Below, in pieces: positions 1,838 through 29,950 of a DNA stretch of 43,994 bases (its first letter is position 1; each line of letters opens with the position of its first letter). The notes beneath the pieces are model-generated. The model was not told the DNA's origin and ran no database searches. It worked only from the letters and a program-made list of their open reading frames with translations. The position numbers were made by a program, and so were the translations under genes. The stretch comes from a virus. The stretch is taken from the IMG/VR virus record IMGVR_UViG_3300010396_000062, positions 1 through 43,994 of that record, one strand, 5' to 3'.

Positions 1838-4800
1838 TCAGTTCACTACCAGGCTCAGCACGTCGGTATAGAAAGTCGCTGAGCCTCCCATCGCCATGAA
1901 ATAACCACCCTTCGAGATCGTGCCGATTCCTGCCTGGGTGAAGATCGTAAGGAACGTCTGGCCGCCGTCCAGAGACTGCTGAAAAAGGAGCGACGTCCCC
2001 GACTTCAGCAGCCGGTAGTGAACATATTCACCAAAGCCGTAGAGCTGAGTTCCGTTGAATTGAATATCGGAGCCGAAGGTTGGACTGCCGGAGCCGCTGT
2101 AGTTCCAAATCTGCGGGGTTATTTGGGCGGATAGAGCTCCCGTCGTTGCCAGCGACGATAGCCAACTACCTAACGCATAGATCTTTCCGTTGGTCGAATC
2201 GTAGACCCATACGCCAGCCTCGGAAGCCTGGCTATTCGTCGAGAGCTGCAACGACATGGAGCGCATCACTGCCTCTACGCTGGTAGTAGCTGTGGACGAT
2301 GCCCAATACACAGAGTTCGCGGTCGAGGTCAGCGCGATATTCCCGTTCGTTCCTACAGCCACGGTTGAGGGCGCAACGCTGTTCAGCCACGTCGGGGATG
2401 CAGGCGGAAGGGTCACTTGATACCCGTCGCTCGGAATATATTTATTTGTCCCGTCGTATAGATATGGAGGGAGGAACGTGAGGCTTCCGGTCGAACTTGC
2501 GGTTACCGTGTTGCATCCCAACACATGCGTCGAGTGCGTATAAATCAGAGCGTTCGATGCGCCATGACAGTCCGGGATAACAAACGGAGTCGGCGGCGCG
2601 GCAGTTGCGCTCTGATTGATCAGAGTTGAATCGGCAGCCTGCGGTGGCAGCCCATTTGCGGGAGCGACAATGTAGGGTGCACTGGAACCAAAGCGCCACG
2701 TTCCTTTCACTGGATTCGCCGCCACCACCGTACCCGTTCCAAGCGCGTTGATCGCATACCCGGTCTCATTCACGCCCGAGTTGAAGGTGTTTCCAGTGAT
2801 CGAATTGTTCGATGACCCGGCAGTCTCGTGCACGGCGTCGGCGGAAGTGGGCAGCTTTCCGTTCGTGTTGAATCCGACTGCAATATCGCTGGTGTAGTCG
2901 ATCGTGTTGCCGGCGAAGCTGATCCCGCTCACTCCATCGATATATGCGGCACTGCCGACGATTCCGGCGAAAGTATTAGCAGCAGCGGAGGCATTGCTTA
3001 CATAAAAATGAATGCCGTCGCCGTTGGTGTCTCCCATCTTGCTGTTCACATAGCTGCCACCCGAAGAGCAGGCGATCATCTGCGTGCCGTCGTTGTCGTA
3101 CAACAATTCGTCGCTGACTCGCGCATAAACGCCGCAGACCATCTCTGCGGGACCATTGTTGTCCTGGATGGAATTCCCTTTGACGATCGGTGCGTCGAGC
3201 GAAACCCCGATCCCGAGGTTCATCCGCTGGATCACATTGTCGGATATCTCGACGTTGTCATCGATGCATCCTGTGATCGTTTTTCCGCCATAGGTGTAGC
3301 TGGTGTTGCAGGTAGTTCCGTTGCCGACGGTCTCGATGCCCTGATTGAGATAGTTGTCGCCGACCAGGTAGAGCTGCGAAATCTTGATGCCGCGGTGCCG
3401 AGACGTGTCCGTTCCCGTTCCGGCCTGATTGCTGTGGGCGATCTCGATCAGCGGAAATCCTGTCGCCGTAGCCTTGAGCTGAGCGCAGCCAGTGCCCAGC
3501 GCTCCGTTCGGCGTACTCGTGTTTGTCCATGTGGTGTTGTAGCCGCCCCACATGCAGTGACCCTCGCCGATCAGGGTCACATTGTCTGTGTCGATCACGA
3601 CAGCGGCGCCATCGTTATAGACGCCCGACTGCAACACCACCGTGCACTGCGCTGGTCCCGCCGATGCGGGCAGTGTCGCAGGGCATGCATTGATCGCGGC
3701 CTGGATCGTCGACTCATCTCCAGTTCCAGTTGCGACGAATCTCGCGGAAGCCTTGTTGATGCTATTGCTCGCGGCCACCACGATCTGCACGGTCTGCGGC
3801 GCCGCCGTGCTCAGTATCTGGGTCTGCGGATTTTGAAGCTCGAATCCGGTTCCGTCATAGACAAGCGTCGCGACCGCTGTCGTAGTCAGATCGCCTGCTG
3901 CGAGTGCCGAAGTTCCATTCTTTGTGATGGTGACGGTGCCGAGCCCGTTTACGTTGACTGTGGGATTCGTCGAGGTATTCGCGAGATTCGGAAGAACGCG
4001 GACCGTCAGTCCAGCACTGAGAGAAGTTACGGCAGGCGAGAAGGTCGCGATCAGCGCGTTGACTGATCCGGTCGCTGCGACGTATGGAGCGGTTCCGGCC
4101 GGGCCTGTCGGACCCGTCGCCCCCGTCGCTCCGGTTATGCTCGCGCCGGCTGGTCCCGCGGGACCTGTTGGTCCGGCTGGTCCCGTCGCACCCTGCAGTG
4201 CGAGAGGCGTCCAGACGAGAGGATTGGTGTCCGGCTCCTGATTGAGCGAACTCGCGGTGGTGTTGACGTAGGAGCTGCCGTTGTAGCCGACCGCCTGGTT
4301 GAGGGTGTACGTCGTGCCGGAGAGCCAGTCTCCCTGCCAGGAGAAGCCCGCGCCCGCGGCACCCGCGGCACCGGTGGCACCCGTCGCGCCTGTGGCACCC
4401 GTCGCGCCGGCCGGGCCGACCAGGCTCGTCCCAGATCCTGGCCATGCGCCTGCGGACTTAGGACCGTAGACAACCCATGCGGTGGTGTCGATGTAGAAGT
4501 CGCCGTTGTTGCCGGCGCCCGAGCTGGGCGCGCCACTACCGCTGATGATGGTATTGCCGCTTGGACCTTGCGGTCCCGTCGCACCGGTCGCACCCGTTGC
4601 GCCGGCTGGGCCTGTTGCCCCACTCCCACTGGTTGCGAGGTGGAACGTGTTGTCCGTGCCGCAGACGTAGAAGGTGAGAGTGCCGGTGTTGAGGCGCGCA
4701 TCCTGCGACGGCGGCGCGCACGAGCTCGGCGGCGATCCGCTGCCATAGGTGAAGGTGAACGCAGCGGCTGTGGGCGCAGTGCTGGGCGGTGTGTAGCTAT

Positions 4801-5260
4801 CCAGCGACCAGGTCGAGCCGCCGATGCCATAGACCGGTCCGCGGCCGAAGTCGACGCCAACCTCGGAGCTTGTCGTTCCCGCCGGCGAGATCGAGCCAAT
4901 GCCGCTGGGACCAGGCGTCGCGGGTCCGACGTAAACAAAGATGTCGTATCCGTGGCCAGGGATGGAATCTGTCGAGGAGTTGGGAACGTTCAGCGATCCG
5001 GCCAGTGAGCCTGCGGTGAGCGTCTGGCAGAACGGATACTTCGCGAGATAGATGGTTCCCGAGGAGTTGGTGACGGTGATCGGGTTGTTGTAGCGATCGA
5101 CCGCGGTGAGGCAGAGCGTTCCATTGACGGGCGATCCGGCGACGGTGACGCTGGTCGCTGTGACCGACGTCATGGCCTGCGGAAAGGCCGGCAGCGCGCA
5201 GAGCATCGGCAGGAGAGACAAGACAGCTCTGCGCACCAATCGCATGATCGCAGTGTGCAA
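1838..5260 (-). CDS. Large exported fibre-like protein: collagen-like repeats, CBM-like segment, beta-helix
   Basis: A 1140-residue protein. Residues 1-29 form a signal peptide ending ALPAFPQA. Residues 30-160 are a domain shared with the 361-1089 protein. Gly-X-Y collagen-like blocks lie at about 214-236, 281-305 and 357-390. Between the last two, residues 306-352 (W-GDW-SGTTY-G-V-YNGSSYV-W) resemble a type 5/12 carbohydrate-binding module. From about residue 500 a right-handed beta-helix of the pectate-lyase type begins (ESTIQAAINAC, then N-x-T-L-I-G-E-G rungs) and runs to about 860. The C-terminal 180 residues look lectin-like. These parts are typical of tail fibres and depolymerases, yet the signal peptide predicts export. 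It may be a receptor-binding fibre, or a surface adhesin carried as cargo. Confidence 0.75.
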   Translation of the reverse strand: MHTAIMRLVRRAVLSLLPMLCALPAFPQAMTSVTATSVTVAGSPVNGTLCLTAVDRYNNPITVTNSSGTIYLAKYPFCQTLTAGSLAGSLNVPNSSTDSIPGHGYDIFVYVGPATPGPSGIGSISPAGTTSSEVGVDFGRGPVYGIGGSTWSLDSYTPPSTAPTAAAFTFTYGSGSPPSSCAPPSQDARLNTGTLTFYVCGTDNTFHLATSGSGATGPAGATGATGATGPQGPSGNTIISGSGAPSSGAGNNGDFYIDTTAWVVYGPKSAGAWPGSGTSLVGPAGATGATGATGATGAAGAAGAGFSWQGDWLSGTTYTLNQAVGYNGSSYVNTTASSLNQEPDTNPLVWTPLALQGATGPAGPTGPAGPAGASITGATGATGPTGPAGTAPYVAATGSVNALIATFSPAVTSLSAGLTVRVLPNLANTSTNPTVNVNGLGTVTITKNGTSALAAGDLTTTAVATLVYDGTGFELQNPQTQILSTAAPQTVQIVVAASNSINKASARFVATGTGDESTIQAAINACPATLPASAGPAQCTVVLQSGVYNDGAAVVIDTDNVTLIGEGHCMWGGYNTTWTNTSTPNGALGTGCAQLKATATGFPLIEIAHSNQAGTGTDTSRHRGIKISQLYLVGDNYLNQGIETVGNGTTCNTSYTYGGKTITGCIDDNVEISDNVIQRMNLGIGVSLDAPIVKGNSIQDNNGPAEMVCGVYARVSDELLYDNDGTQMIACSSGGSYVNSKMGDTNGDGIHFYVSNASAAANTFAGIVGSAAYIDGVSGISFAGNTIDYTSDIAVGFNTNGKLPTSADAVHETAGSSNNSITGNTFNSGVNETGYAINALGTGTVVAANPVKGTWRFGSSAPYIVAPANGLPPQAADSTLINQSATAAPPTPFVIPDCHGASNALIYTHSTHVLGCNTVTASSTGSLTFLPPYLYDGTNKYIPSDGYQVTLPPASPTWLNSVAPSTVAVGTNGNIALTSTANSVYWASSTATTSVEAVMRSMSLQLSTNSQASEAGVWVYDSTNGKIYALGSWLSSLATTGALSAQITPQIWNYSGSGSPTFGSDIQFNGTQLYGFGEYVHYRLLKSGTSLLFQQSLDGGQTFLTIFTQAGIGTISKGGYFMAMGGSATFYTDVLSLVVN

Positions 5261-8109: not shown

Positions 8110-8477
8110 GCGGAGACTCCTTCCCGCGCCAGCTTTTCGCGAACGCGCTCGGCCAGCGCTTCACCCTCGGCGCTGGGCCGCGGGCCGTGGAAGTACTGCG
8201 TCGGTCCGGGAACGTGCGGCAGGTCCCACGAGCTGTGGATCAGCAGGCGGCGCTGCAGGCTGTTGGTCGCAGCGCGCAGTATCGCGCCGGTCGAGCTGTA
8301 GGCGAGAGCGAGGCGGTCATCGCTCTTCGCGTCGCCGATGCCCATCGCGCGCAGCGCAGCGCCGAGTTCCGCCGCCGTCTTGCCGCCGCCGGCGACCGCG
8401 AGGATGATCGCGGCGTCGATCTCATCGCGGCGCTCGAAGTAGCCTTTGTCGTCGGTGAGGGAGAAGTTCATACTCAT
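8106..8477 (-). CDS. Hypothetical protein, winged-helix-like pattern
   Basis: A 123-residue protein from the ATG at 8477, chosen because it forms ATGA with the upstream stop. The helices IDAAIILAVAGG, KTAAELGAALRAMG and LQRRLLIHSSW follow the order of a small winged-helix domain. The C-terminal third (PTQYFHGPRPSAEGEALAER) is charged. It sits in a run of uncharacterised early genes between the transposition genes and GemA. DNA binding is an inference. Confidence 0.5.
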   Translation of the reverse strand: MSMNFSLTDDKGYFERRDEIDAAIILAVAGGGKTAAELGAALRAMGIGDAKSDDRLALAYSSTGAILRAATNSLQRRLLIHSSWDLPHVPGPTQYFHGPRPSAEGEALAERVREKLAREGVSA

Positions 8478-9037
8478 GCCGCGGTCCTCCGCGCAACATC
8501 GACAAGCCACTCCGCGAGCGGACGAACTGTGACCGTGCGTTCGCTTTTCTTCATCTCGCGGCTGTTACCGCTGGCAGTCGTCGAAACGATGACTTCCGGC
8601 TTTCCGAGCCGCAGCGGTACGGGCGGCAGATTCGATGGTCTGCAACCGACGATGTAAAACCACGTCGCCTTCATCGCGGGAAAGCCGAACCAGAATTGCG
8701 GCATGGCGACCGTGTACCCGTCCCATTGATCGAATTCGCCCGGAACCGGAAGTTTGAGATCGTCGAGCTTCCAAAGTGTCGATAAGTAGGGATGCTCGAG
8801 CACGCCGCCAAATTTACGGACCTGTTCGACGGCCCAGATGGCGTGGCTGTCGCGTTCGGCATCTTCGTTAGCGAAGGCGCGAAGTCTGCAATATCCGGCG
8901 CATGGAGGATGCGCAACCACCGGAGTTCCGCCCGGCCAGTTCCGCGCATCGCGATCCTCGTCCCAAACGTCGACGGACGGAAGCTGCTTATAGATGCTGT
9001 CGCGCCGCGCGAAGAGAACCGAGACTGGAATGCTCAT
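8474..9037 (-). CDS. DNA-methylase-like phage protein (PPC motif)
   Basis: A 187-residue protein of a type I recognise from many phages: VSVLFARRDSIYKQLPSVDV, then RDARNWPGGTPVVAHPPC (Pro-Pro-Cys as in motif IV of cytosine-5 methylases), then GGVLEHPYLSTLW (resembling the ENV region), then a WFYIVGCRP strand. It is about half the usual length of an active C5 methylase, and I do not see the SAM-binding FxGxG loop. It could be a degenerate methylase or a protein reusing that fold for protection or modification of phage DNA. Start and stop overlap neighbours by ATGA. Confidence 0.6.
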   Translation of the reverse strand: MSIPVSVLFARRDSIYKQLPSVDVWDEDRDARNWPGGTPVVAHPPCAGYCRLRAFANEDAERDSHAIWAVEQVRKFGGVLEHPYLSTLWKLDDLKLPVPGEFDQWDGYTVAMPQFWFGFPAMKATWFYIVGCRPSNLPPVPLRLGKPEVIVSTTASGNSREMKKSERTVTVRPLAEWLVDVARRTAA

Positions 9038-12684: not shown

Positions 12685-13073
12685 CACTGGCCTCCGAGGT
12701 TGAAGGCGCCGCGCATCCAGGCGTCGAGCAGAACGTAGGCGAGCCAGAGGATTACGCCGGTGACGGTGACGGCGCAGATGTTGCTGAAGAGCCGGTCCAG
12801 GGCGCGCCAGTTGAACGCGGCCAGAAGATCCTCGGCGCGCTCGTTCCAGCGGATGGCCCAGGCGCGGAAGCGCGACTTGCGGCTGATCTCTCCGAGAGCC
12901 TTATCAAAAAGCTCTGGACAGTCGCGTTGGATTCTCGCCAGATATTCCGGATCGCTAGGTTTTAATTCTCCCTCGAAACGACGCGCTTTTAGGAGCGCGT
13001 CGAACTCGGGTTTACTCTGCGGCGGCCAGAATGGGTTGAGATGAGTCTCTTTGTCTCTGCGTGCGGTCATCAT
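12684..13073 (-). CDS. Hypothetical protein with C-terminal membrane helix
   Basis: 129 residues from the ATG at 13073, which forms ATGA with the stop of the ATPase gene. The long upstream open frame to 13367 is a shadow of that ATPase. The N-terminal two thirds are soluble and charged (DPEYLARIQRDCPELFDKAL), and one membrane helix lies near residues 98-116 (TVTGVILWLAYVLLDAW). It is the first of three consecutive small membrane-associated genes directly after the transposition genes. Confidence 0.55.
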   Translation of the reverse strand: MMTARRDKETHLNPFWPPQSKPEFDALLKARRFEGELKPSDPEYLARIQRDCPELFDKALGEISRKSRFRAWAIRWNERAEDLLAAFNWRALDRLFSNICAVTVTGVILWLAYVLLDAWMRGAFNLGGQ

Positions 13074-14104
13074 GCGTCGGTCTCTTTCCGCGGCGAGGCT
13101 TCGGCCCCTGCCTTCCGCTGTGCGATTTGCTGCTGAATGCCGTGGATCGTGAAGAACAGATCGCGGGCGGAGATGTACTCGAACTTGCGGACGGCGATCT
13201 TGCCGCTCTCCGAGTGCTGCGTGCGCGATGCCTTGGCGCGGCAGCCGGCGAGCAGCGAGTCGCACTGCGCTTCGGTGTGCGGGCCGAGCGCGGCGCGGAT
13301 GATCTCGCGCGATTCGGCAACGGACGGACCGTTGAGCGTGAGCGTCTTGCGCACGCGCGAGCGCCACTGCTCCATCTGCCAGTGCGAGAGCCGCTGCGTG
13401 AGGTCATGCGAGCCGGCCAGCACGACGCCGAAGTACGGCGGCAGGTCGAGCAGCTGGCGCAGGATTTCGAGGCCGGCGTGCGCGAGGTGCTGCGCTTCGT
13501 CGACGATGAGCAGGATGCGGCCCTGGCCGAGGAACGTGCGCAGCTTGCGCACGAGGTGATCGATGAAGCCGCGGTTGGGGATGCCGGCGGTGTTGCAGAT
13601 CTCACGCAGCAGGCTCATGGGCGCGTGGTCCTGGCGGGCATAGACATAGATGGCACGGGCGCCGTCGCCGCGCGCGTTGATGGCGCGCTCGGCCGCGCGC
13701 AGCGAGAATGTCTTCTGCGTGCCGGGAGGTCCGTCGATCACATACGCCGAGCCGTGTTCGAGCGCCTTGGTGCAGGAGTCGACGATGCGGCGATAGTCCG
13801 CGGTGGCGTGCGCGAACTCGATGACCTCGGCCTGCTCGCCCTCCCAGCGGTCCATGAAGCTCTTGAGCGCGGCGCGGATGTTGCGCGTGTTGCGCGTGGG
13901 ATCATGCTCATCGGTGAGCGGATTATTGAAATGCCCGTTGAGGTAGACATGCAGCGACGATGGCGCATAGCCGATGGCCTGCGAGAACTCGGACGAGGTG
14001 AGGCCGGTGCGCTGCTGGAACACAGTGGCCCGGGCCACCATGTCGGCGTCCGAGGGCAGGTCCATGGCGGCGAGTTCGGCCTTGCGCTGGGTGGTGAGTG
14101 CCAT
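13070..14104 (-). CDS. MuB-type AAA+ ATPase, transposition target-selection protein
   Basis: A 344-residue protein. Walker A is GPPGTQKT (125-132), Walker B is ILLIVDEAQ (197-205), and a sensor-like LAGSHDL lies near 229-235. An N-terminal Cro-like HTH (about 33-62: LTSSEFSQAIGYAPSSLHVY) precedes the ATPase, as in Mu B. The family binds DNA as ATP-dependent filaments, delivers target DNA to the transposase and gives target immunity. Its stop overlaps the next gene by ATGA, and its ATG directly abuts the transposase stop, so A and B are co-expressed as in Mu. Confidence 0.9.
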   Translation of the reverse strand: MALTTQRKAELAAMDLPSDADMVARATVFQQRTGLTSSEFSQAIGYAPSSLHVYLNGHFNNPLTDEHDPTRNTRNIRAALKSFMDRWEGEQAEVIEFAHATADYRRIVDSCTKALEHGSAYVIDGPPGTQKTFSLRAAERAINARGDGARAIYVYARQDHAPMSLLREICNTAGIPNRGFIDHLVRKLRTFLGQGRILLIVDEAQHLAHAGLEILRQLLDLPPYFGVVLAGSHDLTQRLSHWQMEQWRSRVRKTLTLNGPSVAESREIIRAALGPHTEAQCDSLLAGCRAKASRTQHSESGKIAVRKFEYISARDLFFTIHGIQQQIAQRKAGAEASPRKETDA

Positions 14105-16174
14105 CTAGCGGCCCTCCATCTGCTGGAAGTAGCGGTCCACGTTGTCCTCCGAATGAACGTGCTTGAATGAGGAATCCTGAACGGGCGGCTTCGCCTGCTG
14201 GATCACCACGTCGCCGACGGCCATGGGAAGCTGCAGGCGCTCTTCGTGCTGCTCGACCAGCGTGGTGTAGCCGTCCTGGCGAACGCGGCGGTTGAGATCC
14301 GCGATGGAGCTGGTGACGGCCTTGGCGAGGCCTTTGCGCACGGCGATGGCGGCGCCGACCTTGTCGCGCGTCTCCTGATCGTTCGAGAAGCGCATCAGAT
14401 CCTTGCGTTCGAGCTTGCAGATGAAGTTGCCGTCCGCGTCGAGGACTGCGGCGAACATCGGCTCCATCGGGTCGTAGGCGATGGTGACGCGCCGGCCGCT
14501 CAGCTCGTGCATGTGGTAGTGCGCGGCCTGGTCCATGGGAGCCGGAACGAAGTAGTCGCCGGCGATCTCGATCTGGCAGTTCATCACCTTGCGCGTGGCG
14601 CGCTCGGCGAGCAGCATGGCGAGCACGGAATCTTCCGGGCATGGGCGGTTCGTGCCGCGCTCCTGCTGCATCACCTGGGCGGGCGTGCGGCCATCCATGC
14701 CACGGCCCGAGTGCGGGCGCTGGTGATACCACTGCTCCACCCAGGCCAGGCCGGCCGCGATGTAGTAGCTGGCGAGCGGCAGCTGCGAGTCCTGCGTGCG
14801 GCCCATGCGCAAAAGTTTTCCGTGCTGCATGGTGGCGGCGGTGGTGTTCTCCGGCCGCAGATGCGTCTCGCCGGCGGTATAGGTGGGCCAGCTGCGGTCG
14901 AAGCGGCCGTGCCATGTGCCGTGGAAGCGCTCCTCGCCCTTCGACTGGCCGTGGTAGATCTCGCAGAAGGTGACCGGGATGCCGAGGCGCTTGAGGAAGC
15001 CGGTCTCAAGATCGTGGGCTTCGTCCTGGAAGGCGCGGTGCGCGCGCAGGCGCATCTCGCGATCGCTGGCTCCGCGGGCAACGGACAGAAAATCTTTGCC
15101 ATTGTCGCAATAGAAGCGGTCCGGCAAGCCGAAGCGGCGGATGGCGATCATCAGCGCGCGCTTGATGGAGTGGCTGGAACCGTAGACGGAGAAGGCGAGG
15201 GCCAGCACCATGCGCGAGCGGTAGTCGAAGATGCAGGTTGCGTGCAGGCGCATGTGCTTCAGGTCGCGCGTGCCGAAGAGATCGTTCTGCACAAGCACGT
15301 CGCAGATGAAGTGGTCCGCCATCCAGATGGAGTTGGCCGGCTCGGTGTAGCCGCGCGTCATGAATGGCGAGAACTGCGCCTCGTAGGCGCGGCGGCCTTT
15401 GCGTCCGTAAATCATCAGCGACGGCGATACGTGGCGGAGCGCGGCGCGGACCGTCTCATAGCTGGGCGCCGGAACCTTGAGCAGCTTCGCGCGCTCACAG
15501 ACTGCCTCCCAGGCGACGCGCACGGATTGCGCTGGCTGCTCGCCGTTGCCCATGTGGATGAGCGCCGCGAGTTCGAGCAGGCGGGGATTCTGTTTCGCCC
15601 ATTGCGACTGGTTCTTGTCGGCGCGCGGCTTGCGCGCCAGGCCGAAGCGGCCGTCTTTATCGAAGCGGGACTTCCAGCGCCAGATGGTGGTGGGCGAGAC
15701 GCCGTGTTGTGCGGCGATGGAGGCGACGAGCGCTTCGGAATTGGGAAATGCCGCGGCCCGCGCTTTTGGATCGCGGAGATAGTCGAGGACAGGTTTCAGA
15801 ATCGCCAGCTTGCGCAGCGCTTCCTTCTCGGCATCCGGCGTCAGGTGGATGCGAACGGGTTTGATCTGGACGGCCGGGACCGGGGCGGTATCCTCGCCGG
15901 CGACGAGCCGCGCAGGAGCCAGGGAAAGAGGGGAGGGCGGAGCGCATTCAGGGTGCTCCTCGTGCGACGAGGCCCGTTTCTGGCCGTCCAGATATCGTTG
16001 GCGTGCCTCAGCGGGCAGTGACGATAGCGCGTATTCCGTCATCGGCTGGCTGCGATATGCGCGAGCGCTTTCGCGGCTTTTGACTTCACCGCAAGCGGCG
16101 AGCCTGCGAAGGTGCCGCGGCGACCATCCCGTCAGATCGCAGACTTCATCGCGGAACAGCCAGAGGGCGCTCAT
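14105..16174 (-). CDS. MuA-type DDE transposase
   Basis: A 689-residue protein, close to Mu A in size (663). The N-terminus has a winged-HTH region (VCDLTGWSPRHLRRLAACGE, residues 11-30), and another HTH lies near 146-172 (IAAQHGVSPTTIWRWKSRF). The catalytic core is the retroviral-integrase fold. D287 (SIWMADHF) and D357 (FYCDNGKDF) are present, with E415 (GQSKGEERFHG) 58 residues after the second Asp, matching the wide D-E spacing of Mu A. A basic C-terminal region (about 590-689) would contact the ATPase. It performs strand cleavage and transfer for integration and replicative transposition. IS21 IstA is a related alternative, but the phage context favours the MuA type. Confidence 0.92.
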   Translation of the reverse strand: MSALWLFRDEVCDLTGWSPRHLRRLAACGEVKSRESARAYRSQPMTEYALSSLPAEARQRYLDGQKRASSHEEHPECAPPSPLSLAPARLVAGEDTAPVPAVQIKPVRIHLTPDAEKEALRKLAILKPVLDYLRDPKARAAAFPNSEALVASIAAQHGVSPTTIWRWKSRFDKDGRFGLARKPRADKNQSQWAKQNPRLLELAALIHMGNGEQPAQSVRVAWEAVCERAKLLKVPAPSYETVRAALRHVSPSLMIYGRKGRRAYEAQFSPFMTRGYTEPANSIWMADHFICDVLVQNDLFGTRDLKHMRLHATCIFDYRSRMVLALAFSVYGSSHSIKRALMIAIRRFGLPDRFYCDNGKDFLSVARGASDREMRLRAHRAFQDEAHDLETGFLKRLGIPVTFCEIYHGQSKGEERFHGTWHGRFDRSWPTYTAGETHLRPENTTAATMQHGKLLRMGRTQDSQLPLASYYIAAGLAWVEQWYHQRPHSGRGMDGRTPAQVMQQERGTNRPCPEDSVLAMLLAERATRKVMNCQIEIAGDYFVPAPMDQAAHYHMHELSGRRVTIAYDPMEPMFAAVLDADGNFICKLERKDLMRFSNDQETRDKVGAAIAVRKGLAKAVTSSIADLNRRVRQDGYTTLVEQHEERLQLPMAVGDVVIQQAKPPVQDSSFKHVHSEDNVDRYFQQMEGR

Positions 16175-18629: not shown

Positions 18630-18908
18630 CCGCGCTTGCGCACAGCATATCTTTCGCGGGCGGCCCGGAATCGACTCAAACTGGCGGCCTAAATTCCTAG
18701 TTTCTCCGCAGCTTCGTTCAATCGCGCATGCAGAGCATGCGTGATTTTGCTTGCACCGTAGAGTCGCCTTACATCCCCGAAGGGGACGGGACCCGCTTGA
18801 ACTAATCCCAGAGAAAGGTTCTTCGCGGGCTGACCCAGAGCGGCAGGGAACGGTCGTGTGGCCTCATGGGCTGCACGACCGCGGCCCCGCAAGGCGGCGA
18901 GAGAACGA
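18630..18908 (+). other. Non-coding stretch before the lysis genes
   Basis: No convincing gene lies on the + strand. A minus-strand frame ending at 18689 looks protein-like near its end (FGDVRRLYGASKITHALHAR) but has no usable start close to it; it may be a remnant. A short inverted repeat GCATGC-AGA-GCATGC lies at 18726-18740. The stretch probably carries the lysis-region promoter, though I could not identify one with confidence. Confidence 0.35.
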
Positions 18909-19436
18909 GTGGCGAGCGCAGAACAACTGGCACGGCTTCACGCGGCGGTCCCGGCAGCGCAGGCGGCGATGCGGCGGTGGGGCGTGCCGGCGTCGGTGAC
19001 GCTGGCGCAGTGGACGCTGGAGAGCGGATGGGGTACGTCGCGGCTCTCGACCGAGGCCAACAATTATTTCGGTGTGAAGGCTGAGCATCTGGATAATCCC
19101 GCGACCTACGTCGAGTTTGTGACGAAGGAGTTTCGCGGCGGCATCGAGCGCGACGAGGTCGCGGACTTTGAGAAGTATGCGGACGCGGCGGGAAGCTTTG
19201 ACGATCACGGCCGGCTGCTGGCGACTGCGCCGCGCTATCGCGTGGCGATGATGCACCGCGCCGATCCGGACGTGTTTGCGTTGTGGCTGCAGAGGGCCGG
19301 CTATAGCACGATGCTGCGCGCGAACGGAGCGAAGCAGGATTACTTCGAATATGTGATCGAGTTGATGCGCGAGCACGATCTTTATCAGTACGACAAGCTG
19401 CCGCCGGCCCAGGCTGCGCAGGAGGTCGCCGCGTGA
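18909..19436 (+). CDS. Endolysin, N-acetylglucosaminidase (FlgJ-type) domain
   Basis: 175 residues from a GTG at 18909; an ATG at 18858 would add 17 Arg/Ala-rich residues with no better ribosome site. The domain follows the glucosaminidase family: helices leading to LAQWTLESGWGTS (catalytic Glu in ESGWG), then NNYFGVKA, FRKFADAAGSFDDH-type spacing (here FEKYADAAGSFDDHGRLL), and RYRVAMMH. It cuts the glycan strands of peptidoglycan. No signal peptide is seen, so it needs a holin for release. It is coupled to the next gene by a GTGA overlap. Confidence 0.85.
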   Translation: MASAEQLARLHAAVPAAQAAMRRWGVPASVTLAQWTLESGWGTSRLSTEANNYFGVKAEHLDNPATYVEFVTKEFRGGIERDEVADFEKYADAAGSFDDHGRLLATAPRYRVAMMHRADPDVFALWLQRAGYSTMLRANGAKQDYFEYVIELMREHDLYQYDKLPPAQAAQEVAA

Positions 19437-20786: not shown

Positions 20787-21128
20787 ATGGCGTTTTGGGC
20801 TTGGCTGAGACAACGGGGAACCTGGCTGAAAGGGAAGCGGACCTACATCTTGGCGTTCGTGGTCCTGGCGGTGGTTGGGACGGCCGTGTTTCGGGGCGAT
20901 CTGACGCCGGATGTCGCGAGCGGGATCTTGCTGGCGGCGCTGGCGGGTTTCGCGGTCACTTTCCGGGCGGCTATCGCGGATCACCAGGCCGAGATGATGG
21001 AAGCTCTCCAGGACATTGCCGCCGCCGGCGTCGCGGTCCGTGCACACGACAAAGCGGCCGAGGCTGCGCTGGCGCAGACGGTGGTCGCGCAGATCAAGAA
21101 AGACATTGCAACCGGAGCCAATAACTGA
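20787..21128 (+). CDS. Holin-like membrane protein
   Basis: A 113-residue protein. A short basic N-terminus (RQRGTWLKGKR) precedes two hydrophobic segments, about 21-37 (YILAFVVLAVVGTAVF) and 44-60 (ASGILLAALAGFAVTF), then a helical charged tail. The plan suits a two-pass holin or membrane-anchored phage protein. It is the first gene of the late operon, with a GGGGAGGG ribosome site. Its stop overlaps the next ATG (TGATG). Confidence 0.6.
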   Translation: MAFWAWLRQRGTWLKGKRTYILAFVVLAVVGTAVFRGDLTPDVASGILLAALAGFAVTFRAAIADHQAEMMEALQDIAAAGVAVRAHDKAAEAALAQTVVAQIKKDIATGANN

Positions 21129-21340
21129 TGACAGCCGAGCAGATCGACAACTGGTTTTCGTATCACCGTCCGACGCCCGAGCAACAGGCGGCGTATGAGC
21201 ATCTACGGGCGAAGGCGAAGGAGTTTGCGCACGCCCTGAATGATGTCGCGCCGGAGAGCGCCGACAAAACTGCCGCCATGCGCAAGCTGCGCGAATGTGT
21301 CATGACGGCCAATGCGGCGATCGCCTGCGGGGGAAGATGA
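21128..21340 (+). CDS. Acb2/Tad1-hairpin-like protein, candidate cyclic-nucleotide sponge
   Basis: 70 residues. The layout, from memory of the family, is the one known as the Acb2/Tad1 hairpin domain (DUF7681): IDNWFSYHRPTPEQQAAYEH, then LRAKAKEFAHALND--PES--KTAAM-KL-E-VM-ANAAIA. The motif set F-x-Y-H near residue 12, P-x2-Q, L-R-x2-A-K, S-x2-K-x-A and a final M-x-A-N-A-x-I-A is complete. Family members bind signalling cyclic nucleotides made by CBASS or Thoeris and so block abortive immunity. Tyr12 with Arg27 or Lys31 could correspond to ligand-contacting residues. It is coupled to both neighbours (TGATG, ATGA). Nucleotide specificity cannot be read from sequence. Confidence 0.65.
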   Translation: MTAEQIDNWFSYHRPTPEQQAAYEHLRAKAKEFAHALNDVAPESADKTAAMRKLRECVMTANAAIACGGR

Positions 21341-21864
21341 TGGCTGATACCACCATCAACCAGACGATCACGCCGGCGCCGGACGGAGTTCCGCGCTTCA
21401 CTACTTCGACTGTGGCGATGCTTGGCGCCTCATTATTCGGCGGCGGCGGAGTCGCCTACTTAGCCTTCGAGCTTCTCCGTGATCAACCGGACAAAGCATT
21501 CCGGCTGCTAGAGGTTTGGGGTCCCGGTTATCTGCTGGCCTTCTTCGTCGGCCTGCTGCTGTATCGGCTGCTGAACCGTGCCGTCGACGTGACGATGCAT
21601 TCCAGCCAAACGAACGCCGCGGCCGTGCAAGAGGTTGCGGTGCAAATGAGATCGGTGGCGGAAGCGATGAGCGCCCAGGCTATCGCACTGCAGAAGGCCG
21701 CAGATAAGGACGATAACGAAAAGCGCGAGATGCAGATTTTGATTGGCGTGCTGCATGACAAGGTGGAAGACATCCGCACCGAACAAAAGGGCGGAAGCCG
21801 TGCACTGCAGCGCATTGAAAATGCCTTGAAGATCAACCAGCCCGAAGGAAGTGACGCCAAATGA
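21337..21864 (+). CDS. Membrane protein with long cytoplasmic coiled coil
   Basis: 175 residues from the ATG at 21337, which forms ATGA with the previous stop. Two hydrophobic segments lie near 21-44 (TVAMLGASLFGGGGVAYLAF) and 60-80 (YLLAFFVGLLLYRLLN). A long charged helical region follows (about 90-170), ending near RTEQKGG and LQRIENAL. It could be a second holin, an antiholin, or an anchor for the packaging machinery; I cannot tell which. Confidence 0.55.
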   Translation: MMADTTINQTITPAPDGVPRFTTSTVAMLGASLFGGGGVAYLAFELLRDQPDKAFRLLEVWGPGYLLAFFVGLLLYRLLNRAVDVTMHSSQTNAAAVQEVAVQMRSVAEAMSAQAIALQKAADKDDNEKREMQILIGVLHDKVEDIRTEQKGGSRALQRIENALKINQPEGSDAK

Positions 21865-22181: not shown

Positions 22182-22931
22182 ATGGCCAAGGCGAGACCTA
22201 AAACCGGCGAAGCTCGGAAGACGCATCAGCCGCTCAAGATTGACTTGCTGCCGCAGGATGTCCGCGATGCAATTCAGTTCCTGCGCAACCAACGCTTCGA
22301 GACATGGGAATCGATCGCGGCGCGCAGCGCGTTGCCGTTCAGTAAGGATTGGGCGAAGGACGGCGGCGGCTTTATCGATTGGCCGAAATTAGAGCCGCAG
22401 GTCCTGGACGAATTCCCTGGACTGAAGTTGCCGCTGACGACGCTGCATCGCTGGTATGACATGCGCGTCGACCAGGTGCAGGACCAGATACTCAAAGAGT
22501 CGGAGGTCGCGCGCCGCTTTGCAGGTAAATTTATGGGCGCCGACATTGACGATCCGAACGGCGCAGTCATCAATGCCATGCGCGATGAAGTGTTTGCGCT
22601 CGCCGGCAAGATGGACACCGAAAGCCGCGGTCTCTACATGAAGTCGCTCAACCAGCTCACGCTGGCCATGACGCGCATCCAGCGCACGCAGATGCAGCAG
22701 CTGAAGGTGAAGGCCGACATCGCGAAGAGCGAGACGGAACGCGCGAGGATTGCAGCGCAGTCCGGAGATCCGCGCGAGGTCTACCTGCGCGCGGTGAGTG
22801 ATCTGCTGAAGAAACTGCGCACGCGCGATGCAGTGCGCGCGGCGCTCGATCCCATCAAGGACGAGATCGTCCAGGAGATGTCGTATGCCGCCGAGGCCTT
22901 CGCAAAACAAGTCCAAGCGACAGCGGCTTGA
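22182..22931 (+). CDS. Small terminase subunit, Mu Gp27-type (DUF3486)
   Basis: A 249-residue protein. The N-terminus has LPQDVRDAIQFLRNQRFETW, the Gp27-type HTH start, and KLPLTTLHRWYDMRV follows. The central region is a long coiled coil (LNQLTLAMTRIQRTQMQQLK). It recognises phage DNA and recruits the large terminase for packaging. It overlaps the large-subunit gene by 47 bp in another frame, suggesting coupled translation. Confidence 0.8.
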   Translation: MAKARPKTGEARKTHQPLKIDLLPQDVRDAIQFLRNQRFETWESIAARSALPFSKDWAKDGGGFIDWPKLEPQVLDEFPGLKLPLTTLHRWYDMRVDQVQDQILKESEVARRFAGKFMGADIDDPNGAVINAMRDEVFALAGKMDTESRGLYMKSLNQLTLAMTRIQRTQMQQLKVKADIAKSETERARIAAQSGDPREVYLRAVSDLLKKLRTRDAVRAALDPIKDEIVQEMSYAAEAFAKQVQATAA

Positions 22932-24549
22932 TGAAGCCGCGGCAGTCGTCCGCGACGCGCTAGGCATCAATCCGGAGATCGTTCAGATCCAAAAGGCCGA
23001 TCCCGGCGAGCTGCTCGCCCAGGCCTGGTCGATGGCTGAGGAGATCACCGCCTTTGCGGTGAAATATCTTCGCCACTTCATGATCGATCCGAAGACTGGT
23101 GAGTTCACTCCGCCAGCGGACTTTCACCAGGAGCTCTACCGGATGCTGCTCTCTGAGCAGTTCATCGCGGTCGCCGCGCCGCGCGAACATGCGAAGTCGA
23201 CCGTGGTCTCGGTAATCTTCCCGCTCTATTGCATCTGCTATAAGAAGCGCCGCTTCATCGTCCTCATCAGCGACACACAGCCGCAGGCGGCGCTGCAGCT
23301 CGCGGCCGTCAAGGAAGAGATCGAAAACAACGACGAGCTGCGCAAGGATTTTGGAGACCTGGCCGGCGACAAGAAGTGGGATGTGAACGACTGCCGCACG
23401 TCGACGGGTATCACCATCGTCGCGCGCGGCGCCGGGCAAAGCCTTCGCGGCTTGCGCTATCGCATGTGGCGCCCGGACCTGGTGATCTGCGATGACCTCG
23501 AAAACGAAGAGGCCGTCGAAAACCCGGAGACGCGCGAGAAGCTGATTCGCTGGTTCAAAGGCACCGTGATGAATCTGGGCAAATACTGCCAGATCTGCGT
23601 CGTCGGCACGATCCTGCATTACGACTCTTTCCTTTCCGAACTGCTCGACGACACCAAGTTCAAGCGCTTCGTGAAGCGGCGATATATGGCCGTCGACATG
23701 GAGTGGACGCCGGCGTCGGTGTTGTGGCCGGCCAAGTGGGACCTCGCGTCGCTGAAGCTGAAGGAAGAGGACCTCGGCTCGGTCTTCTTCAACCAAGAAT
23801 TTCGCAACCTTCCGATCTCGTCCGAGACACAGGTCTTCCAGGAGAATTGGATCAAACAGCATCAGTATCTCCGCGAAGAGCTGCTGAACCTGACACTGCT
23901 GAAAATCGCGTATCACGATCCCGCGATCAGCATGAAGCGCAAGGCCGACTTCTTTGGCAGCATCACCGTGGGTGTGCGCGAGAACGGAAAGATTCTCGTG
24001 CTGCGTGCTGAGCAGAAGAAGATGCCGTTCACGCAGCAGGTTGAATACATCGTCCGGCTGTGGGATGCGGAGCATCCTGAAGTTGTCGGCATTGAGGACC
24101 AGGCATACCAGGAAGCGCTGAAGCAGGCGGTCGACGAGGTGAGCACGGCGACCGGCCGCTACATGAACGTCGTCGGCGTGCCACACCTGACAGACAAGTT
24201 CACGCGCATCGCGAAGATCTCTGGCCTGGTCGAGAACGGAACCATCCAGTTCTTGCTCGACGGAACGCAGACTGCGCTCATCAACCAGCTGCTCTACCTG
24301 GGCAAGATCAAAGACGACTTGGCTGATGCTCTCGAAAGCGCGGTCGCCCTGGCGCGGGAGATGAACTTCCGGCCGGTGATTATTGCGCTGCCGGCCTCCG
24401 CCGGCGTTGGCGAACGGTCGCCCGATGCAGGGCGCGGCCGCGGAATGCTCTCGCGGGTCCTGGTGGAGCAGATCGACCGCGAACGGCCTGACTTGATCGA
24501 AAGCCCGCAAGAGTTTTTACAGAGAGGAAGGAAGAGCGTATGGCGATGA
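22885..24549 (+). CDS. Terminase large subunit
   Basis: 554 residues from the ATG at 22885. Walker A is APREHAKST (98-106) and Walker B LVICDDLEN (199-207), followed by a helicase-like coupling segment with VVGTIL. The C-terminal half carries the nuclease, with AYHDPAIS as the first acidic cluster and VGIEDQAYQEAL and DDLADAL near its end, the pattern of the RNase H-like fold. It packages DNA at the portal; Mu-type phages cut headfuls including host flank. It overlaps the portal gene by 10 bp. Confidence 0.9.
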   Translation: MPPRPSQNKSKRQRLDEAAAVVRDALGINPEIVQIQKADPGELLAQAWSMAEEITAFAVKYLRHFMIDPKTGEFTPPADFHQELYRMLLSEQFIAVAAPREHAKSTVVSVIFPLYCICYKKRRFIVLISDTQPQAALQLAAVKEEIENNDELRKDFGDLAGDKKWDVNDCRTSTGITIVARGAGQSLRGLRYRMWRPDLVICDDLENEEAVENPETREKLIRWFKGTVMNLGKYCQICVVGTILHYDSFLSELLDDTKFKRFVKRRYMAVDMEWTPASVLWPAKWDLASLKLKEEDLGSVFFNQEFRNLPISSETQVFQENWIKQHQYLREELLNLTLLKIAYHDPAISMKRKADFFGSITVGVRENGKILVLRAEQKKMPFTQQVEYIVRLWDAEHPEVVGIEDQAYQEALKQAVDEVSTATGRYMNVVGVPHLTDKFTRIAKISGLVENGTIQFLLDGTQTALINQLLYLGKIKDDLADALESAVALAREMNFRPVIIALPASAGVGERSPDAGRGRGMLSRVLVEQIDRERPDLIESPQEFLQRGRKSVWR

Positions 24550-26126
24550 CATTGCTGGGATTGAATCGGAGCAATAAGACGGTTGAGGACCGCGCTGGGT
24601 TAGTGCTGCTCGACCTGAGCGAGGCGCGTGCTGCGCAGGCGGAACGGGCGGCAGGCGATGCGGAGGCGGCGCGTTTGCGCGAGATGCAGGTGAAGGAGGC
24701 GATCGGCCCGGCGATCTTCTCGCTGACCTCGGGCGATGGCGAGGATGCGAAGTTCCGGCGCATCACTTCGCCAGAGACGCTGCGCGACCTGAATCCGCTG
24801 ATGCATGACCGCATGCAGCAGGTGTGCTTCTTCCTCGCGGTGACGACACCTTTCGGCAAGCGCATCGTCGAGATCATCACCAGCTATGTCGTCGGCGAGC
24901 GGCTCAAGGTGATCTGCGAAGACGCGGCGGCGCAGGCGGTCGTCGATCGCTTTTGGAGCGACGAAATCAACAATATGGAAACGCGTTGCCAGAAGATCTG
25001 CGACGGCGAGACCACCTTTGGCGAGGAGTGCATTCCCGTTGCCGTCAATCCTGTCGATGGGTTCGTGCGCCTTGGTTATATCGATCCCATGCAGATCGAT
25101 GCGGTCGAGTACGGGAAGATGGTTACGGCCGGCGGCGATCAGGAGGTCGCGTTTCCCGTCACAGTACGGCTGCGCAAAGAGGTCGGCGTTCCGGATCAGA
25201 AGCGACTCTCCATCATCCGCACCGATGAGGATGTGACGTCGCCGACGTTCGGTCAGCTCACAGGAGATACGTTTTACTTCGCGATCAACAAAGCGCAGAG
25301 TGCGAGCCGCGGCATCTCGGAGCTGTTCTCGCTGGCCGACTGGATTGACGTGTTCGACCAGATGATCTTCGACTTCGCGGACAAGGTGCGCTTCCTGAAC
25401 TCCTTCGTCTGGCATTACACGCTGACCGGCGCCGACGAGAAGCAGACCGACGCCTATGCGAAGAAGGTGACCAAGAACCCACCGCGCCAGGGCGGCGTCT
25501 TTGTATCAAACGAAAAGGTTGTCGTCGAGGCGAAGACGCCGGACTTCAAGGGCGCGGACATGTCGTCTGGCGCTGACATGGTGAAGAAGTACGGACTCGG
25601 CGGTGCTGGCCTGCCGGACTGGTTTTTCGGCGACTCGGGCAGCGGCAACCGCTCGACGGCCGCGGAGATGCAAGGACCCACAGGAAAGAAGTTGACGCTA
25701 CGCCAGGCTGATCTCGTCAACAACATCAAGCGCGTTATCACTTTCGTGTTGGAGCAGGCGAAGGCGCATGGCGTGCTTTCAAAGAGTGTCAACACGGCGC
25801 ACACCATCGAGGTGCCGGAGCTGATCGTGCGCGACCTTGCCGGTGCGGCAACGGTGCTCTCGGGCGCAACGACTGCACTGGAGGCGGCGGAGGACCGCGG
25901 CTGGATTCGCGGAGAAACCGCGGCGCGCAGCTTCCACATGCTGATCGGACAGATCGGCACGGTGGTTGAGGACTCGAAGGACGAGTATGAGGCGGCGCAA
26001 AAGGAGATGGAGGACAGGACCGCGAAGCAGCAGAACTCTCTGTTCCCGCAGAACGCGCTGGCGGCGGCACTTCAGAACGTTCCAGATCCCGAGGCTGACG
26101 CTGAAGCCGGCGGCATGGTGCAGTAA
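24540..26126 (+). CDS. Portal protein
   Basis: A 528-residue protein. Position directly after the terminase, and motifs such as FFLAVTTPFGKRIVEIITSY, FLNSFVWHYTL and GLPDWFFGDSGSGNRSTAAE, are typical of phage portals. A long helix (TLRQADLVNNIKRVITFVLE) fits the stem and wing. A GAGGAAGG ribosome site precedes the ATG. It forms the ring at one capsid vertex for DNA passage and as a nucleus for assembly. The C-terminal stretch is acidic and Gln-rich. It shares one base with the next start (TAATG). Confidence 0.85.
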   Translation: MAMTLLGLNRSNKTVEDRAGLVLLDLSEARAAQAERAAGDAEAARLREMQVKEAIGPAIFSLTSGDGEDAKFRRITSPETLRDLNPLMHDRMQQVCFFLAVTTPFGKRIVEIITSYVVGERLKVICEDAAAQAVVDRFWSDEINNMETRCQKICDGETTFGEECIPVAVNPVDGFVRLGYIDPMQIDAVEYGKMVTAGGDQEVAFPVTVRLRKEVGVPDQKRLSIIRTDEDVTSPTFGQLTGDTFYFAINKAQSASRGISELFSLADWIDVFDQMIFDFADKVRFLNSFVWHYTLTGADEKQTDAYAKKVTKNPPRQGGVFVSNEKVVVEAKTPDFKGADMSSGADMVKKYGLGGAGLPDWFFGDSGSGNRSTAAEMQGPTGKKLTLRQADLVNNIKRVITFVLEQAKAHGVLSKSVNTAHTIEVPELIVRDLAGAATVLSGATTALEAAEDRGWIRGETAARSFHMLIGQIGTVVEDSKDEYEAAQKEMEDRTAKQQNSLFPQNALAAALQNVPDPEADAEAGGMVQ

Positions 26127-27019
26127 TGGACAGCCGCGCGCGGCTCTATGCTGCGCAAGTCACGAAGCTGATCGACGGCGCGAAGTCGCTCACACCGGAG
26201 GCGCGCGCAGCGATCGAGGGCGCCCTGGCGCAGGCGGACCGGGAGATCCTCGGCCGCATCGCACAGCTCGATCCGAAGAGCTTCACCGTGCAGCAGCTGG
26301 CCGCCCTTCGCTCTGCGATCGACCAGGAGCTCGTGAAGTTTCGTGTGACGGCCACCGCCAAGGTGAATGCGCTGCAGGAGCGCGCAGCGACGATGGCGAC
26401 GCAGCAGACCAGTAACGTGGTCAGTGCGGCCCTGGGCATCGGGCAGCCGATCGGCACGGTCAATATGGCGACGGTGCGCATCGCGCAGGGCTACGCGGCG
26501 GATCTGATCTCCGGCTTGTCGGCCGACGCGGCCGCAAAGATCAAAGGCGCGGTTCAGCGCGCATTCCTCGGCGGCCAGTCCATGAGCGAGATCATCGACC
26601 AGGTGGGCCGCGCGCTCGAAGGCGGAAAGTTCAGCGGCATCTTCACTGACGTGGGCGATCGCGCGATGCGCATCGCGTTCAACGAGATACTGCGCGTGCA
26701 TTCGATTGCCGGCCAGGCACGGCTGCAGGATCTCGCCAGCCGCAACAAAGCCATCAAGAAGCGCTGGATGCATATTCCAGCCGCGCGTGTGCCGCGCCTC
26801 GGCCACATCCTGGCGAACGGCCAGACGGTCGCGGTCGACCAGTCGTTCAAGGTGGAGGGCGAGGACTTGATGTTCCCGCGCGATCCGAGCGGATCTCCGG
26901 AGAACACGATCTTCTGCCACTGCGTCTCCGTTCCGTTTATCGACGATTCCGATCTCTATGCGACGGCCGCCGATCGCAAAACGCTTGCCGCAGCCGGCAT
27001 CAGTATCGCTGCCGCGTAA
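26126..27019 (+). CDS. MuF-type minor head protein
   Basis: A 297-residue protein. The C-terminal region (ALEGGKFSGIFTDVGDRAMR, IAFNEILRVHSIAG, then KKRWMHIPAARVPRLGH, and finally NTIFCHCVSVPF) follows the head-morphogenesis domain named after Mu F. Instead of the usual CRC motif it ends with a CHC pair. These proteins sit inside or near the portal and can enter the host. The N-terminal third is helical and Gln-rich. It is coupled to the portal gene. Confidence 0.8.
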   Translation: MDSRARLYAAQVTKLIDGAKSLTPEARAAIEGALAQADREILGRIAQLDPKSFTVQQLAALRSAIDQELVKFRVTATAKVNALQERAATMATQQTSNVVSAALGIGQPIGTVNMATVRIAQGYAADLISGLSADAAAKIKGAVQRAFLGGQSMSEIIDQVGRALEGGKFSGIFTDVGDRAMRIAFNEILRVHSIAGQARLQDLASRNKAIKKRWMHIPAARVPRLGHILANGQTVAVDQSFKVEGEDLMFPRDPSGSPENTIFCHCVSVPFIDDSDLYATAADRKTLAAAGISIAAA

Positions 27020-27535: not shown

Positions 27536-29950
27536 ATGACCGAACGCAACATGCAACTCGTCTGGTTGGCCGTGGCAGAAGCTGCCGCGGCCGACCTGTC
27601 GTTGTACGACCGCTCCGCGCTGCTGGATGGCGCGCTGCTGGCGCAGTTTGGCCGCGACGAGCAGGGGTATCAGCGCTTCTACATCCAGGACATCTTCAAC
27701 GACTATGTGATCGCGCGCAACGAGAGCGGCGCGCTCTATCGCATCGGCTACACGCTCAGCGGCGACGATGTGACGCTGACCGATGCGCAGGAAGTCGAGA
27801 CCGCGTACGTGCCGGTGGCTGAAGCCGGCCATTTTGTTTCGGAGGCCGCGGCCGGAGATCTCGACGATTGCACTTATCCGGTGACCGTGATGAAAGCGGG
27901 ATGGGGACTTGGCACCGTCAACGGCGCCGGTTCGCTTCCGCATTATTACCCGCCCGAGTTTGTTGCGCAGATCGCAGAAGCCGCCAGCAATGCGAAGTTC
28001 GGCCGTAATCATCCACAGGGCGACAGCTTCGGCGAGAACGATCCGGAACGCATCGCGGGCTGGTTCAGCGATGGACACGTTGTCGCCGGCGTCCAGGAAG
28101 CGCGCGCCAAGCTGAATCTTCTGAAGAGTGAGACGGCGCTGCGCTCGAAGTTCGCTGCAGCTCGTGAGGCCGGCAAGCTCGATATGTTCGGTCTCTCGAT
28201 CCTTGCGACGGTCGGATTCGCGCCGGCGGTGATCGAGGGTAAGAAGTGCCTCGAAGCGAGGAAGATCGGCAAGTTGTTTTCCGTAGACCTGGTCGGCGAA
28301 GCCGGCGCAGGCGGACGTTTTCTGCAAGAAATGCGGGTGGCCGCCTCGGCCGACGCAAGCGGTGAGATCGCCGCGGCTCAACTGGCCGCGGTCAAACAAG
28401 GATCGTCTGCCCACCTGGTCAGACATAAAACGAGCGATGCAATCCGTCGCGAGGGAGACCAGATGAAGATCAAAGAAATGATCCTGCGCGTGATTGAAGC
28501 GCTGCGCACGAAGGATGAGACCACCGCCAATAAGTTTCACACTGAGCTGAACGCCGCGACCGAGGAGTCCGCCTACGAAGGCATCCTGGTGCGCGTGACC
28601 GAGGCGCTCTCCACCGCGGGCGCGGCCGCAACCGCCGCTGCACAGCAGGCCGCGAACGAGACGCTCGCTCAGGCGAAGAAGCTGCAGTTTGCGAATGTGA
28701 TGGAGTCGAAGCTGACCGAGTCCAAGCTGCCGGCGCCTGGCATGAAGCTGGTGCGCGATCACTTCGCGAAGATCGCGGAGCCGACCGAGGCTGATATCGA
28801 CGCGCAGATCGTGGGCGTGCGCGAGGCGCTGGCCGCAATGAGCAACAACGGCCGCGTGACTCCTGCTGGCGTCGTGTCGATCGATTCCGCCGACAAGACG
28901 ACGATCGCCATCGAACGCATGCTCGGCGTCAAGGGACACGAGACAAGCGGCGTGCCGGCGTTCCGCGGTGTGCGCGAAGCTTACATCCACATCACCGGCG
29001 ATCGCGATCTCACGAAGTTGAGCCAGGGCGGTGGCGCGTTCTATACGCGCGTGTCGGAAGCGGTCGCGACCAGCGACTTCCCGAACCTGCTTCTCAACTC
29101 CATGACCAAGCGCCTGCTGCAGGATTATGCGGAGCTCGGTATGGACGGCCTCGATTTGCTCTACACGAAGGCCAACATCAACGACTACAAGCTGCAGGAC
29201 CGCGTGCGTGATGGCTACTTCGACGAGCTCGCGGCGGTGGCAGAAAACGGTGCGTACACCGAGATCAGTAAGCCGACCGATGAGCGCGTGAACTACGCGG
29301 TCTCGAAATACGGCAACCTGCTCACGATCTCCGAGGAGACGATCCGCAACGATGATCTCGGTGCGATCGCGCGCTTCCCCGGCCGCCTGGCGCGCGCAGG
29401 CCGCAAGACGCTGAAGACGTTCATCACCAACTTCTTCAAAAACAATCCGAACTATGCGGCCGATTCTGTCGCGTGGTTCGCGAGTGGCCACAACAACCTT
29501 GGCTCGACGGCGTTCGGCTATGACGCCCTGGTCGCCGCCGAGATCACGCTCTTCAACCAGACCGAGAAGGACTCGGGCGAGCAGCTCGGTCTGACGCTCG
29601 ACTGGGTTATGGTCTCGGCCTCGCTCAAGGCCGCGGCGCTCGAACTCAACAACTCGAACACGGCCGGCAGCTCGGCGTTCTACAAGCGCTTCGGCGCGAA
29701 TGGCGAGCGCATCATTGTCAACGAGAAGCTGACAGACGCGAACGACTGGTATTTCGGCACCAACCAGGCGAACGCGCCCTTCCTGGAGATCGGCTTCCTC
29801 GACGGCATCGAAGAGCCGCAGATCTTCCTGGCCAACAACCCTGTGGTCGGCACGCAGTTCACCAATGATCAGCTGCAGTACAAGGTGAAGCACGTCTTCG
29901 GCGGCGCGATCGTTGACTTCCGCGGCGTGGGCAAGAACGTCGTCGCCTAA
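27536..29950 (+). CDS. Fused head protease, scaffold and major capsid protein
   Basis: An 804-residue protein that seems to join three Mu functions. Residues 1-260 resemble the Mu gpI-type protease: RFYIQDIFNDYVIARN, then GWGLGTVNG, then FGRNHPQGDSFGENDPERIA and a GWFSDGHVV strand. Residues about 260-430 are Ala/Lys-rich helices fitting a scaffold. Residues about 430-804 match the Mu gpT type capsid protein (DFPNLLLNSMTKRLLQDY, then PTDERVNYAVSKYGNLLTIS, and DVFGG-type end). A second start with a GAGGGAGA ribosome site lies at 28463 and would yield a scaffold-capsid product. The protease would release itself and the scaffold during maturation. Confidence 0.8.
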   Translation: MTERNMQLVWLAVAEAAAADLSLYDRSALLDGALLAQFGRDEQGYQRFYIQDIFNDYVIARNESGALYRIGYTLSGDDVTLTDAQEVETAYVPVAEAGHFVSEAAAGDLDDCTYPVTVMKAGWGLGTVNGAGSLPHYYPPEFVAQIAEAASNAKFGRNHPQGDSFGENDPERIAGWFSDGHVVAGVQEARAKLNLLKSETALRSKFAAAREAGKLDMFGLSILATVGFAPAVIEGKKCLEARKIGKLFSVDLVGEAGAGGRFLQEMRVAASADASGEIAAAQLAAVKQGSSAHLVRHKTSDAIRREGDQMKIKEMILRVIEALRTKDETTANKFHTELNAATEESAYEGILVRVTEALSTAGAAATAAAQQAANETLAQAKKLQFANVMESKLTESKLPAPGMKLVRDHFAKIAEPTEADIDAQIVGVREALAAMSNNGRVTPAGVVSIDSADKTTIAIERMLGVKGHETSGVPAFRGVREAYIHITGDRDLTKLSQGGGAFYTRVSEAVATSDFPNLLLNSMTKRLLQDYAELGMDGLDLLYTKANINDYKLQDRVRDGYFDELAAVAENGAYTEISKPTDERVNYAVSKYGNLLTISEETIRNDDLGAIARFPGRLARAGRKTLKTFITNFFKNNPNYAADSVAWFASGHNNLGSTAFGYDALVAAEITLFNQTEKDSGEQLGLTLDWVMVSASLKAAALELNNSNTAGSSAFYKRFGANGERIIVNEKLTDANDWYFGTNQANAPFLEIGFLDGIEEPQIFLANNPVVGTQFTNDQLQYKVKHVFGGAIVDFRGVGKNVVA

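Follow-up and report, generated by a model that had tools for sequence, protein, structure and literature searches.

The closest described relatives of the gene studied here encode Acb2 and Tad1, which share the hairpin domain PF24729. Acb2, known from T4 (Vs.4; PDB 7UQ2) and from a Pseudomonas phage (PDB 8H2J), measures about 90 aa and has been described as one short helix at the N-terminus followed by two long ones (PMC12043709). In the T4 protein the exchange Y8A disrupts cyclic-dinucleotide binding and leaves Panoptes untriggered (PMC12657230; PMC12657218), Phe82 stacks on the ligand (PMC12657218), and the natural variant T68M is reported to lower binding affinity (PMC12657230). In both Acb2 and Tad1, cyclic trinucleotides are bound apart from the dinucleotide pocket, where the trimer subunits meet, and Acb2 has been reported to act in lysogenic induction rather than maintenance (review, PMC12043709). 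Tad1 of SBSphiJ7 (PDB 8KBB, 7UAV) is a protein of 142 aa with the hairpin domain at its C-terminus only and an N-terminal antiparallel β-sheet domain that helps to form the gcADPR pocket. The nearest precedent for a late-operon Acb2 in a transposable phage is the Pseudomonas phage Ps60, a Beetrevirus (B3-like) that carries a PF24729 gene among its late genes. The family as such is already known in actinophage papers (PMC13348362), and members are annotated in UniProt.

The window analysed here is an entire IMG/VR record of 43,994 bases, in which the following features were assigned:

13070–14104, minus strand: MuB-like AAA DNA-transposition protein (phrog_296, E 2.2e-30; PF13401)
14105–16174, minus strand: MuA-like transposase (phrog_310, E 2.4e-77; PF09299 Mu-transpos_C)
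18858–19436, plus strand: endolysin, a glucosaminidase (PF01832, E 1.7e-28; phrog_3513 endolysin, E 2.3e-31)
20787–21128, plus strand: small membrane protein of 113 aa upstream of the hairpin gene, holin-like by position (hydrophobic segments; relatives have homologues in the corresponding position)
21128–21340, plus strand: Acb2/Tad1-hairpin (PF24729) gene of 70 aa, predicted nucleotide-signal sponge (Pfam, AlphaFold2 model, 47 relatives)
21340–21864, plus strand: downstream membrane protein of 174 aa (ATG overlaps the hairpin stop; homologues in relatives)
22182–22931, plus strand: Mu gp27-like small terminase subunit (PF11985, E 4e-11; phrog_426)
22828–24549, plus strand: large terminase subunit, true start probably near 22900 (phrog_38, E 1.5e-88)
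24540–26126, plus strand: portal protein (phrog_10963, E 5e-26)
26126–27019, plus strand: Mu F-like head protein (PF04233, E 9e-8)
27536–29950, plus strand: capsid/protease fusion (PF25209, E 3e-36; phrog_4523)

The MuA- and MuB-like proteins, Mu gp27, MuF and the capsid families bore out the transposable-phage context proposed in a first-pass annotation of this DNA, and judged by its genes the phage is Mu-like. On the plus strand the endolysin is followed by small proteins, the two membrane genes, both terminase subunits, the portal, the Mu F-like protein and the capsid. The hairpin gene lies between the two membrane genes within this lysis–terminase region, as had been claimed, and its position suggests late expression. 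The upstream 113-aa protein had no match in Pfam or PHROG. Peptide-pattern searches with both flanking membrane proteins returned no relatives, and their homologues were recovered through terminase relatives. Elsewhere in the window, the 804-aa protein at 27536–29950 (+) apparently combines a protease-like N-terminal part with a capsid domain (phrog_4523, phrog_29592). A 1140-aa protein at the left end of the record (1838–5260, –) gave weak collagen-repeat, CBM_5_12 and pectinesterase-like matches and may serve as a tail fibre or on the surface, and a 187-aa protein (8474–9037, –) matched phrog_12600, a family of unknown function, with E 9e-56.

The 70-codon open reading frame was present as annotated, and its translation contained every motif that had been listed for it: F10-S-Y12-H13, L26-R27-x2-A30-K31, S44-x2-K47-x-A49 and M59-x-A61-N62-A63-x-I65-A66, the protein ending in ANAAIACGGR. 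The one-base overlaps described with both neighbours were found as TGATG at 21126–21130 and 21338–21342; the ATG of the hairpin gene shares one base with the upstream stop codon, and its own stop shares one with the downstream ATG. Comparison with relative L001 gave a dN of ~0.28–0.29 against a dS that was saturated or ~2.5, and the reading frame is thus under strong purifying selection.

The hairpin protein matched PF24729 over the full profile (positions 1–58 of 58) with 60 bits and an E-value of 2.5e-16, the curated cut-off being 27 bits. This score is in the range of the two characterised Acb2 proteins, T4 Vs.4 (71 bits) and Pseudomonas Acb2 (67); Ps60 Acb2 reached 60 bits and SBSphiJ7 Tad1 34. 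Relatives with 45–64% identity were found on 47 IMG/VR contigs, and an alignment of 36 sequences served for a profile and for AlphaFold2. Searched against PDB sequences, this profile found neither Acb2 nor Tad1, with negligible scores to solved chains, because the branch is too distant; it is the Pfam model that connects the protein with Acb2/Tad1. No match for the hairpin protein came from NCBIfam or PADLOC; since PADLOC also misses T4 Acb2, its negative result is uninformative. Phage proteins of the Paenibacillus, Gordonia, Myrna and Tunturiibacter types (Tunturiibacter being a member of the Acidobacteriota) share the motif F-x-Y-H-x-P and the profile span, and most of them also the length of ~70 aa. 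From these sequence comparisons, the protein is best placed as a PF24729 member in a separate F-x-Y-H-x-P branch, neither strict-sense Acb2 nor Tad1. This branch makes up a large part of PF24729, and we found no experiment on it in the open-licence literature. Some family members bear the database names 'putative phosphomannomutase' or 'NAD/FAD-utilizing enzyme' (phage hits H15–H19, H43, H56), which look like misannotations.

As the first-pass annotation had anticipated, the AlphaFold2 model (mean pLDDT 93.7) showed a helical hairpin, with a short N-terminal helix (residues 3–9) and two long antiparallel helices (17–40 and 45–66). The modelled protein thus has the Acb2 architecture, including the lack of any extra domain, and the Tad1 β-sheet is absent. 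Foldseek placed Acb2/Tad1 hairpin proteins nearest among predicted viral structures (probability 1.0, E 1e-3 to 1e-1). Against the PDB it returned nothing significant; as helical hairpins of this size make poor queries, this result is no evidence against the assignment. Common to Acb2 and the present protein are also the pocket tyrosine with a basic residue 15 positions on, and the nature of a small accessory phage gene. The present protein differs in its shorter helices, in F-x-Y-H-x-P where Acb2 has (I/A)-x-G-Y-(R/K), in the missing C-terminal R-A-[IV]-x-Q-P motif, and in Ala45/Arg52/Arg55 where Acb2 has Arg/Thr/Gln and T4 itself Asp/Thr/Lys. The second helix of Tad1 aligns with it through an A-x-T-K-L-E-E-A-L-M-W-x-N-type motif including the shared Asn62, whereas Arg/Thr of Tad1 at 45/52 are not found. 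Since the all-helical protein of 70 aa has no β-sheet domain, it cannot build the gcADPR pocket in the manner reported for Tad1. The Ps60 gene, which like ours sits among late genes of a transposable phage, differs in lying after the capsid gene, in encoding 109 aa, in being Acb2 in the strict sense and in its Pseudomonas host.

Local-pair alignment placed Tyr12 and Arg27 on known Acb2 pocket positions, as had been proposed: Tyr12 corresponds to Tyr8 in T4 and Tyr11 in the Pseudomonas protein, Arg27 to Lys23 and Lys26, respectively. We take Tyr11 and Lys26 of Pseudomonas Acb2 to be pocket residues. Both Tyr12 and Arg27 are conserved in the query alignment, in which R27, D46, R52, R55, E56, V58, M59 and N62 are invariant. 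Lys31, which had been named as a further pocket residue, is not conserved.

Taken together, we propose that the gene product is probably an Acb2/Tad1-superfamily sponge, built like Acb2, that would sequester cyclic-oligonucleotide signals and in this way counter host defence. The combined anti-CBASS or anti-Thoeris identity originally suggested is retained in its Acb2-like part, to which profile, fold and pocket residues point; its Tad1-like, anti-Thoeris part loses support through the lack of the β-domain. On our best reading, CBASS is a likelier target than Thoeris, with a possibly shifted specificity. The hairpin protomers would associate, in analogy to Acb2 probably into hexamers, and capture the cyclic-oligonucleotide alarm molecules of the host, which would keep CBASS-type effectors off; given the location of the gene in the lysis–terminase stretch, its expression would coincide with that of the late genes once a prophage is induced or a cell infected. 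In this scheme we infer the oligomer, ligand binding, the identity of the ligand, late expression and the target system. Two sequence features would argue against a sponge, namely A(P)/R/R at positions 45/52/55 of this clade, where Acb2/Tad1 members have R/T/(E,Q), and the loss of R-A-[IV]-x-Q-P together with Ala66 as the equivalent of T4 Phe82; the Pseudomonas Acb2 likewise has Ala at the latter position.

Positions 45 and 52 on the last helix split the clade of the query sharply from the rest of the family. Among 166 distinct sequences, which were collected by similarity and share common ancestry, so that the split possibly reflects one evolutionary change, 123 had Arg/Thr at 45/52, 37 Ala/Arg, 3 Pro/Arg and 3 other combinations, including Asp/Thr of T4 Acb2. 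Arg55 occurred in all 36 sequences of the query alignment, compared with Gln or Glu in Acb2 and Tad1 (Lys in T4). Among the F-x-Y-H-x-P types compared, Ala45/Arg52 was confined to the Myrna, Tunturiibacter and query types; the Paenibacillus and Gordonia types keep Arg45/Thr52. The signature marks a clade and says nothing direct on function. Position 52 is the equivalent of the T4 residue altered in T68M, and positions 45/52 may contact the ligand.

The best-surviving alternative is a sponge of the same fold that mainly captures other signals, such as cyclic trinucleotides, type III CRISPR oligoadenylates or cADPR isomers, and whose specificity A45/R52/R55 would have altered. In favour of this explanation are the clear separation of the clade (among the 166 sequences, 123 with R,T against 40 with R preceded by A or P) and the trinucleotide site that Acb2 and Tad1 have at the trimer interface. 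However, Tyr12 and Arg27 of the dinucleotide pocket are kept, and a contribution of positions 45/52 to the trimer site is something we infer; we regard this alternative as rather unlikely. Slightly less doubtful, and still tentative, is the related idea that the Ala45/Arg52/Arg55 clade of soil/Acidobacteriota phages and Myrna-type mycobacteriophages forms a separate sponge class. Here the arginine would have shifted by seven positions, roughly two helical turns, on the same face of the helix and retuned a shared cyclic-nucleotide site, e.g., for trinucleotides or a new signal, to match the alarm chemistry of an unstudied phylum. We found no prior description of the signature in the open-licence literature.

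A relative of the phage with conserved gene order was found as a prophage on a 1.69-Mb contig of genome G192, which was sampled within the phylum to which a Pyrinomonadaceae genome belongs, the Acidobacteriota; the large terminase of this prophage is 64–66% identical, and it retains the order h20410 homologue, membrane gene, h21861 homologue, small and large terminase subunits, portal and MuF. Late-gene order was also largely kept in 12 IMG/VR contigs related through the small terminase. The two membrane genes follow one another immediately, with nothing between them, in seven contigs (L064, L065, L066, L068, L069, L070, L071) as well as in the G192 prophage, and in six of these eight the junction is a 1- or 4-base overlap. 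The hairpin gene of the window occupies exactly this junction. Only two of the 12 related records, the near-identical L066 (1213–1443) and L067, contain a family member; it is 42% identical to the query, has Asn where the query has Arg27, and lies in another slot, with the endolysin on one side and the 20410 homologue on the other. Further family members neighbour portal and RNA ligase genes (Gordonia), an HNH gene and tRNAs (Myrna), sigma factor and HicAB genes (Paenibacillus) or RNase H (Tunturi_1).

Because the junction is empty in relatives and L066/L067 use a different slot, the hairpin gene is, on this comparative evidence, an optional and mobile accessory of this Mu-like phage from soil Acidobacteriota and no part of lysis or packaging. 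Such varied neighbourhoods are the behaviour of counter-defence genes and argue against a core lysis or packaging role; the synteny data strengthen the case for accessory counter-defence. They also bear on the possibility that the protein is a soluble helical regulator of lysis timing and partner of the flanking membrane genes, with the hairpin as a mere scaffold. This explanation would account for the location within the lysis–terminase region and for overlaps on both sides that suggest translational coupling, but both membrane genes are retained side by side in relatives without the hairpin gene, other family members (Gordonia, Tunturi_1, Myrna, Paenibacillus) occur in unrelated contexts, and we know of no lysis-regulator role for the PF24729 family, which makes it improbable. 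A degenerate or non-binding member retained through hitch-hiking, as the signature residues unlike those of tested sponges might suggest, is more improbable still in view of the strong purifying selection (dN ~0.28, saturated dS) and the eight residues invariant across 36 sequences.

As for possible targets, 27 of 392 sampled genomes of the host phylum encoded a SMODS cyclase above cut-off and 57 of 392 a ThsB_TIR protein, and CBASS or Thoeris targets are thus plausible in this phylum. Searches of the prophage-bearing genome G192 for SMODS and ThsB found neither. ThsB_TIR occurred in four of five above-cut-off hairpin genomes (compared with the 57/392); this co-occurrence was set aside, as n = 5 and three of the genomes are apparently close kin.

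If the protein binds such signals, signal-sponge counter-defence would reach Mu-like phages of Acidobacteriota, and a function would be assigned to the F-x-Y-H-x-P branch of PF24729. In the open-licence literature we found no earlier description of Acidobacteriota Mu-like phages as carriers or of the empty-site comparison. A reciprocal change of R45/T52 to A45/R52 would offer a handle on ligand choice by sponges, and accessory insertion between coupled genes may be a way for a phage to gain a late-operon sponge that needs no promoter of its own.

Hairpin domains were also observed in bacterial genomes. In three Acidobacteriota genomes (G139, G102 and G130; loci L082, L083 and L084) a hairpin domain starting MKPEEIRETFRYHSP lies within open frames of ~350–400 codons that run ~200 residues past the hairpin, possibly representing a bacterial protein with a fused hairpin. 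The Pyrinomonadaceae MAG G013 carries two diverged PF24729 genes on separate contigs (L079, L080).
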